Shown here: positions 711 to 36,598 of the stretch, piece by piece
Layout of the letters: every line of letters begins with the position of its first letter
Numbering within the stretch: the stretch's first letter is position 1
Assembly: GCA_018830225.1 (NCBI GenBank)
Contig: JAHJSS010000022.1
Span: 1 to 38,710 of the forward strand
Length of the DNA stretch: 38,710 bases
Direction: 5' to 3'
DNA from: Nanobdellota archaeon
Lineage (GTDB): Archaea; Nanobdellota; Nanobdellia; Woesearchaeales; UBA11576
Program-made: the position numbers and the translations under genes
The notes under the pieces: model-generated
What the model saw: the letters and a program-made list of their open reading frames with translations, nothing else
What the model was told of the DNA's origin: nothing
Database searches by the model: none

Positions 711-907
711 TGCTCTGTCCCAAGACTTGCTCTTGCGCAGCCACAACCGCCTAGCGAGCTGTGGACTGAACAGCAGAGAATGCCGCAGTTGGGCACCTTC
801 AAGCTGTGCTTGAAGGTCAGCGCCTACGGGGAAAGCGCAATAAGAAGCGGTTCAAGAATTGGTGCGAGCGCGGTTGTGGCTGTGCGAATGTGACTCTGAA
901 CAGAGCA
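711..907. mobile_element. Non-autonomous hairpin element (family 1) with 9-bp flanking direct repeats GCCTGAAAC
   Basis: Ends TGCTCTGT.../...ACAGAGCA are inverted; 13-bp stem CAGCCACAACCGC (738-750)/GCGGTTGTGGCTG (870-882); GCCTGAAAC at 702-710 and 908-916. Confidence 0.7.
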
Positions 908-4109: not shown

Positions 4110-4332
4110 ATCTTTTTCATGTTTTTTCATTGGCGACAATAGCAAAACAAGAACAGAACCGGTTGCCCGTTTGTACGAGCAGCAGATTTACACGGTCAAG
4201 TCATGTCCGCGAACAGAAATGCGGAAGGTGATGCGGCTCGTGTGGCTGAGCGAGCGTAGCGAGCGAATGCCGCACTCGCGTGCCAGCTGAGCGTGCAGCT
4301 GCGGGAATCCAACACAGGTCTGCCTGTGGGAG

Positions 4333-27625: not shown

Positions 27626-27897
27626 CAGCAGCGCCGCCGTGAATATGCGGGTGCTGTCAAGTTAAGTGTCATGCCGCCTAGTGAGCTGAGTGCAAAATAG
27701 GCGCTAAATGTCGCAGTTCAGCAGAAATAGGCAGCGAGAGAATCGCAGCGAGCGCGGCATGACACACTTCTTGACTTTACCGAATATGCGAGGCGTTGCT
27801 GCTTTAATGACGAGGCCGTTGTCGGGGGACGTCCCTTACGGGGAGACAGGCCCCTTGACATGAATACGCGGACGCCGAGCTTCACGCGGCGCTGCTG
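27626..27897. repeat. Family-2 hairpin element interrupted by a 132-bp family-1 element
   Basis: Ends CAGCAGCGCCGCCGTGAATATG / GACGCCGAGCTTCACGCGGCGCTGCTG; core GGGGGACGTCCCTTACGGGG 27824-27843. Confidence 0.7.
27650..27781. mobile_element. 132-bp MITE-like element, copy 1 (TSD GAATATGCG)
   Basis: TIR GGTgctGTCAAGttaaGTGTCATGCCGC / reverse complement of end GGTaaaGTCAAGaagtGTGTCATGCCGC; GAATATGCG at 27641-27649 and 27782-27790; matches 36420-36551 base for base by eye. Confidence 0.88.
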
Positions 27898-34537: not shown

Positions 34538-34641
34538 GCGCCACTGCCGCCTAGCGAGCTGACTGCTGAGATACGCAGCTAATATTGCAGTTGGGCAAAA
34601 AGAAGCAGTTCAATACGCGACAGCGAGCGCGGCAGTGGCGC
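34538..34641. repeat. Family-1 hairpin element (third sequence variant)
   Basis: Stem GCGCCACTGCCGC (34538-34550)/GCGGCAGTGGCGC (34629-34641) around CCGCCTAGCGAGCTG...GCGAGCGCGG core; no TSD found. Confidence 0.6.
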
Positions 34642-36382: not shown

Positions 36383-36419
36383 TGCGTTTTATGGATCCTT
36401 TTTTGTTTCGGATCTTCAG

Positions 36420-36551
36420 GGTGCTGTCAAGTTAAGTGTCATGCCGCCTAGTGAGCTGAGTGCAAAATAGGCGCTAAATGTCGCAGTTCAGCAGAAATAG
36501 GCAGCGAGAGAATCGCAGCGAGCGCGGCATGACACACTTCTTGACTTTACC
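36420..36551. mobile_element. 132-bp MITE-like element, copy 2 (TSD GATCTTCAG)
   Basis: Matches 27650-27781 base for base by eye; GATCTTCAG at 36411-36419 and 36552-36560. Confidence 0.88.
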
Positions 36552-36598
36552 GATCTTCAGTAAAATATATAAATGCAGCTCTTTATCGTCCAGCTACA

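Follow-up and report, generated by a model that had tools for sequence, protein, structure and literature searches.

The MITEs of bacteria and archaea, for example QMITE2 of Coxiella, are elements of 100-200 bp with terminal inverted repeats and 7-9 bp duplications, present in many intergenic copies whose transcripts are predicted to fold (PMC10969869). Kink-turns, in their standard form, consist of a stem, a three-base bulge and two G.A pairs (PMC5539422). L7Ae, which is said to occur universally among archaea, is a kink-turn-binding protein whose targets include mRNAs (PMC5539422); the kink-turns of archaeal mRNA leaders combine a C-helix, the three-base bulge, the two G.A pairs and an NC-helix (PMC5539422, PMC6298567). 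Box C/D sRNAs contain a kink-turn built from box C (RUGAUGA) and box D (CUGA), which lie close to the ends, and a free, variable terminal stem closes it (PMC5539422). REP/BIME, ERIC and BOX sequences are dispersed, intergenic and imperfectly palindromic. Transposons are usually recognised through their constant DNA ends.

Here we describe a family of archaeal elements that resembles MITEs in all the respects listed above but differs from them in one unusual feature, namely that one structured core is common to several MITE subfamilies whose ends differ. The core, with its compensating arms and kink-turn-like motif, persists across genera, whereas the ends do not. In other words, while the ends vary, natural selection preserves a folded motif, probably at the RNA level, across several genera of barely cultured archaea. 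The elements are dispersed and intergenic like REP/BIME, ERIC and BOX, and are likewise imperfect palindromes; unlike these, they have 9-bp duplications, an asymmetric core with kink-turn boxes and covarying, copy-specific arms. On balance we favour the reading that they are non-autonomous transposons whose transcript stays foldable into a kink-turn hairpin for the host's L7Ae. A limited literature search (Woesearchaeota with MITE or noncoding RNA; kink-turn with transposable element) returned no description of such a family, and Rfam gave no match in the window at the gathering cut-off. The mobile structured family thus appears to be undescribed, as the original prediction had supposed, and the combination of MITE and kink-turn is new to us.

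The window, i.e. the whole stretch of DNA analysed, comprises 38,710 nt (positions 1 to 38,710 of contig JAHJSS010000022.1) of assembly GCA_018830225.1, from a Nanobdellota archaeon (Woesearchaeales; UBA11576). This source genome (G000) measures 1.3 Mb in 81 contigs and is 92.6% complete; about 99% of it was examined as stretches, window included. Two models of the hairpin-core family were used, a sequence model (R1) and a structure model (R2).

Four copies lie in the window, all on the plus strand. Copy 1 (711-907, ends TGCTCTGTCCC and ACAGAGCA) is bounded by direct repeats of GCCTGAAAC, the left target-site duplication at 702-710, which shares bases with the stop codon of the upstream gene (147-707), and the right one at 908-916. 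The original prediction, whose motifs and arms all recur at the positions it gave, had delimited exactly this stretch between the 9-bp repeats. The hairpin of copy 1 (738-882, arms CAGCCACAACCGC and GCGGTTGTGGCTG) scores 57.2 bits with R2 (E 5.5e-13) and has an RNA fold z of -4.59. It contains a 5' box (CCTAGCGAGC, 750-759), whose columns are invariant or nearly so in alignments A1 and A2 and which is the proposed bulged kink-turn strand (bulge AGC, then GA); a middle box (GCAGTTGGGC, 785-794) conserved genus-wide; an extra loop hairpin (ACCTTCAAGC/GCTTGAAGGT, 795-817) restricted to long (127-nt) cores; and a 3' box, GCGAGCG (864-870), the proposed non-bulged strand. Copy 2 is a 132-bp element (27650-27781, GGTGCTGTCAAG...CTTGACTTTACC; R2 78.2 bits) with its hairpin at 27665-27766 and its core at 27674-27757, set between direct repeats of GAATATGCG (target-site duplications at 27641-27649 and 27782-27790). 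Copy 4, also of 132 bp (36420-36551; hairpin 36435-36536; R2 78.2 bits; fold z -5.12), is flanked by duplications of GATCTTCAG as direct repeats (36411-36419 and 36552-36560). These two have the same core and arms, copy 2 being the 'copy' of the element at 36436. Copy 3 is a hairpin at 34538-34641 (GCGCCACTGCCGC / GCGGCAGTGGCGC; R2 87.5 bits, E 9.3e-21; fold z -4.03), around which an intact target duplication was looked for and not found.

The same anatomy recurs across the source genome. Sixteen distinct copies have the common layout GGTGCTGTCAAGTTARGTGTCATG-core-CATGACACACTTCTTGACTTTACC (the GGTGCTGTC type), and a direct repeat of 8-11 bp, mostly 9 bp, flanks 15 of the 16 at a fixed place. 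Repeats of 9 bp also surround copies with other ends (L006, L013, L038), and in several cases identical copies occupy different loci. Other subfamilies in this genome end in GTATTTGTTTAGCT or CTCTGTCCCG. In another family of the order, two genomes (G343, G345) have copies with 9-bp repeats (CGATTACAC, ACAAAAAAA); like the copies of G105 and G314, these show GGNNNNGTCAASTTAAG-type ends that resemble those of the main subfamily in the source genome, and clear 9-bp repeats surround some of the copies in these four genomes. Terminal inverted repeats are present, e.g. GGTGCTGTCAAGTTA / GGTAAAGTCAAG and GCTCTGTCCC / GGGACAGAGC. Where both ends are known the element is 132-197 bp long, too short for an internal transposase gene, and the core measures 81-86 nt, varying by single bases. 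A coding core was rejected given these single-base length differences among copies and the stops in its frames (judged by eye).

Target duplications of 9 bp are a mark of staggered DDE-type integration, and together with the inverted ends they mark the elements as small transposons whose mobilisation is due to a transposase that makes staggered cuts (DDE type). The elements are therefore small non-autonomous DNA transposons of MITE type, recently mobile as double-stranded DNA. On this point the original prediction, which had taken the family for something other than a MITE, does not hold, since terminal inverted repeats and 9-bp duplications are present and the ends are constant within a subfamily (15 of 16 GGTGCTGTC-type copies duplicated). 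The same evidence bears on the idea of a single-stranded DNA hairpin element, whose folded strand would be read by HUH/Y1 or another hairpin enzyme. Pairing within the single strand is indeed constrained, and in a strand-specific manner, as such an element would lead one to expect; yet the 9-bp target duplications are those of staggered DDE-type integration, and the element ends carry inverted repeats. To our knowledge, IS200/IS605-type elements make no target duplications. We consider a single-stranded DNA element very unlikely.

Several observations concern the insertions themselves. Four of the 16 GGTGCTGTC-type copies were inserted less than 60 bp from an older copy, with gaps of 34-57 bp (L194:3332-3628, L205:6849-7103, L223:11355-11624 and L226:4006-4254); by hand calculation, a random choice of sites over the 233 kb between genes would give about 0.2 such close insertions. 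One of these four young copies took the resident's end as its target (AACAAATAC). Around the L026 copy the flanking direct repeat is about 19 bp long (TGTCAGAATTTCGGTTTTG), exceeding the usual 9 bp. In one genome, G001, cores such as those of L060, L063, L064, L078, L079, L057, L058, L085 and L088 carry a different sequence, common to several of them (e.g. ...TTAAGGTATCGTGCGG), in place of the middle part or the 3' box, which suggests recombination between element types.

The transposase would act in trans and is absent from the source assembly as far as searched. The association with DDE genes raised in the original prediction did not emerge: in this genome, whose incomplete assembly (92.6%) leaves room for mobilisation in trans, PF03400, PF12762, PF01609, PF00872 and an IS6-like protein gave no match, and a search for a full-length element with GGTGCTGTC ends returned matches that were all core-bearing copies. 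Among relatives, no candidate could be proved to be the partner: neither IS1 (PF03400; ends GGTAGTGTTA), which is missing from the genus and present in 12 of the order's 362 genomes, nor IS1595 (PF12762), likewise missing from the genus, nor IS4/IS5 (PF01609), which occurs only in G001 and has unrelated ends, nor IS256 (PF00872), nor the IS6/IS240-like elements, with 93 positive genomes among the same 362. The best lead is an IS6/IS240-like element of G001 (L363:1427-2370) with a zinc-ribbon transposase and an 8-bp duplication (CCTAAAAG). Its ends, GACATTGTCAATTAATCGGT and GATATTGTCAACTTATAGGT, appear closest to those of the family, resembling the element ends GGTGCTGTCAAGTTA and GACAAAGTCAAGTTAAG and having GTCAA-TTA in common with them. 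It is one of the archaeal IS6/IS240-like insertion sequences (PF13610; PMC6807381); its duplication is 8 bp where the elements have 9 bp, and no such sequence was found in the source genome.

We now turn to the arms. Alignment A2 comprises 47 diverged copies, and its covariation score of 0.522 lies above all 500 shuffles (0.189 +/- 0.013) and above all controls in which the partner was slid by 1-3 columns (at most 0.183), relatedness being kept by the slid controls and not by the shuffles. In A2, 82.0% of cells are paired (62.7% when shuffled), and changes on both sides number 179 (62.9 when shuffled). The outcome was the same in a second set of 51 copies, all below 80% identity, where arm positions 1-9 are Watson-Crick in 34-50 copies, with at most four pair types each, far above shuffles. 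Double changes recur both within and between genomes. Complementarity is thus kept by compensatory change, which places the single-stranded form under constraint, and the constant core within variable, self-complementary arms is borne out by the covariation of the 47 copies. The original prediction had also called the arms unrelated between variants: their pairing stands and several arms are truly different, but a loose C-rich pattern, of which GCGCCRCCACTG is an example, recurs in many 5' arms, and much of the variation is therefore compensated divergence.

Which strand is constrained is less plain from folding energies, which for the window copies reach z -4.0 to -5.1, with the reverse strand nearly as stable (z -4.59). 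Arm mismatches are G.T in 15 cases and A.C in 6 (p about 0.08), an asymmetry that is only suggestive of strand sense. Taken together, the excess of G.T over A.C and a conserved U.G in the core (A.C on the other strand) point to the kink-turn strand as the constrained one. In the loop, RNAalifold on the genus alignment recovered the outer stem with a small number of pairs further in, and no loop structure; the middle box reads GCAGTTNRGC in the genus, without supported pairs.

Beyond the stem, the constant boxes CCTAGYGAGC and GYGAGCG lie opposite one another. When paired they give C-G, C.C and U.G, then three unpaired bases (AGY) on one strand alone, followed by G.A, A.G, R-Y and C-G. GA is present in 50 of 51 copies on one strand and 49 of 51 on the other; nearly all copies have a three-base bulge ([AT]GY), and the opposite strand has none. 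The pair adjoining GA (3b:3n) is G-C in 40 of 51 and A-T in 7 of 51, and it covaries (shuffle p below 0.0005). The NC-helix beyond the G.A pairs has two pairs, one of them covarying, and a third that is partly formed (73.8% of cells paired). On the other side, the C-helix meets the bulge with a U.G wobble at position -1 (46 of 51) and a nearly invariant C.C mismatch at -2, then continues as a Watson-Crick stem. The bulged strand is accordingly 5'-CCU-[AGY]-GA-R-C and the non-bulged strand 5'-G-Y-GA-G-C-G, with a Watson-Crick 3b:3n pair (G-C or A-U). In a second subtype (G111, G123, G273 and two copies in the source genome) GAA faces GRA with a GT/AC helix, and a third purine pair replaces the Watson-Crick pair.

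This layout, which was absent from the original prediction, makes it well supported, on comparative sequence grounds, that the core boxes would form a kink-turn in a long stem. The bulge, the G.A pairs and the C.C mismatch have all been retained, which argues against a DNA-level palindrome, as that would lose them. A U.G at -1 and a C.C at -2 are odd for a kink-turn. The elements agree with the archaeal mRNA-leader kink-turns bound by L7Ae (PMC5539422, PMC6298567) in three-base bulge, two G.A pairs, NC-helix and possibly C-helix, and in a Watson-Crick 3b:3n pair for which folding is predicted to need the protein; they differ in belonging to mobile DNA present dozens of times in a genome, in the C.C and U.G of the putative C-helix and in a loop of about 55 nt. 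The source genome also contains a second core family in eight places (L174:8059, L178:3862, L181:3273, L190:784, L194:899, L207:11008, L262:17725 and L265:4589), with GGCTCTGTCC ends, boxes TTTGYGAGGC / GCCGAAC and differing self-complementary arms. Here, too, the boxes produce a bulge with GY at its end, followed by tandem GA and a GGC/GCC helix. In our view, the same motif in two unrelated cores with similar ends is the best argument that the motif matters, small as the set is. In other intergenic hairpins of this genome, both families excluded, no enrichment of GA/GA was found.

The resemblance to box C/D sRNAs suggests another explanation, that of a mobile small-RNA gene in which UAGYGA would be box C and GYGA box D, and the variable loop would carry guides. 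A box C/D kink-turn is likewise closed by a terminal stem, and L7Ae interactors include box-like kink-turns (PMC5539422). Against this, neither box fits the RUGAUGA or CUGA consensus, and besides the absence of Rfam matches at cut-off, a relaxed search with two members gave nothing credible. The elements also differ from box C/D sRNAs in being mobile. We give a box C/D-related gene very little credence.

On the other hand, the plain mobile anatomy raises the question of an ordinary MITE without RNA function, in which template switching or gene conversion maintains the likeness of the arms, complementary only as inverted repeats, and the boxes serve as DNA sites for a transposase or host protein. 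Identical arms among young copies, the leftover similarity in many arms and the nearly equal folding of the reverse strand would all fit. However, if the arms corrected one another, whatever is not complementary in them should disappear; in fact the bulge and the G.A/G.A and C.C sites show the strongest conservation. Moreover, the pair beyond the G.A sites covaries, G.T exceeds A.C in the arms, the GYGAGC boxes are in direct and not inverted orientation, and a core common to elements with different ends is not simply the site of one transposase. Such an element is rather unlikely in our judgement. A structured RNA or single-strand hairpin, as originally predicted, remains the best reading.

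In the preferred reading, a transposon with a foldable transcript, the first steps are shown by the data: recent movement as double-stranded DNA has left the 9-bp duplications in intergenic DNA, and the core has been kept with complementary arms whatever the ends, its single-stranded form being constrained. It is well supported that this form would be an extended stem into which a standard kink-turn is set. The RNA hairpin, transcribed by read-through from neighbouring genes, is then presumed to be bound by L7Ae. In this regard, a Watson-Crick 3b:3n pair leads to poor folding in metal ions, and most kink-turns still fold on L7Ae (PMC8191799); the main subtype is therefore predicted to need protein, and we infer L7Ae binding from the motif. 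Finally, the L7Ae-bound hairpin is proposed to act as a shield or terminator of the host transcript, so that read-through transcripts might be made stable, terminated or silent; alternatively, the RNA may aid the element itself. A shielded or terminated transcript would make intergenic insertion tolerable, and this would explain one core with different ends. A bolder version, in which the transposon family depends on kink-turn RNA recruiting L7Ae (or an sRNP) as a required or protective partner and the cassette is swapped between transposons with different ends, spreading new regulatory sites bound by the host, seems to us improbable. If the kink-turn is real, the elements have seeded dozens of intergenic binding sites for L7Ae, a central RNA protein of archaea, and nature would have set up an experiment on whether harmlessness or usefulness at the RNA level lets mobile DNA persist.

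As to copy number, CCGCCTAGYGAGCTG with at most one mismatch has 32 matches in the source genome and the reversed pattern none. With either model, R1 or R2, 34 copies are detected elsewhere in the genome in addition to the four of the window, so the family is genuinely multi-copy, as predicted. About 37 of the roughly 38 are secure; the weakest R1 match (L201) is without the 3' box, and the weakest R2 match (L197:14483) has a fully paired helix where other copies carry the bulge. Predicted genes contain none of 37 copies, though 82% of the sequence is coding. The exact pattern of the hairpin core occurs in only one genus among 61 near relatives, and in a separate scan of 85,488 species it matched only three Woesearchaeota assemblies and five chance-looking bacterial sequences. 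The five bacterial matches were rejected as members, being without 3' box or arms, as was the single viral contig match, which is likewise without them. R1 extends the family to other genera within the order. R2, applied to a draw of 382 genomes of the phylum, detected members in 15 (the source genome and 14 others; best ten candidates per genome scored), with at least 10 in some; all belong to the same order, in line with the expected restriction to related archaea. R2 is thus a ready means for finding further copies.

With respect to neighbouring genes, about 62 of 97 downstream genes point the same way as the element (two copies enter this count twice), a weak bias and at most a hint. Of the upstream genes only about half do so, without bias, which does not speak for the proposed shield or terminator role. 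Two further repeats are worth recording. The short motif CCYTACGGGG occurs 39 times in the source genome, 36 of them intergenic (in the window, for example, at 27844-27853 and 825-834); it looks like another dispersed hairpin and is present within long cores too. A palindromic repeat at 4250-4266 of the window (GAGCGTAGCGAGC) has 9 copies in the genome, and all 9 are intergenic.
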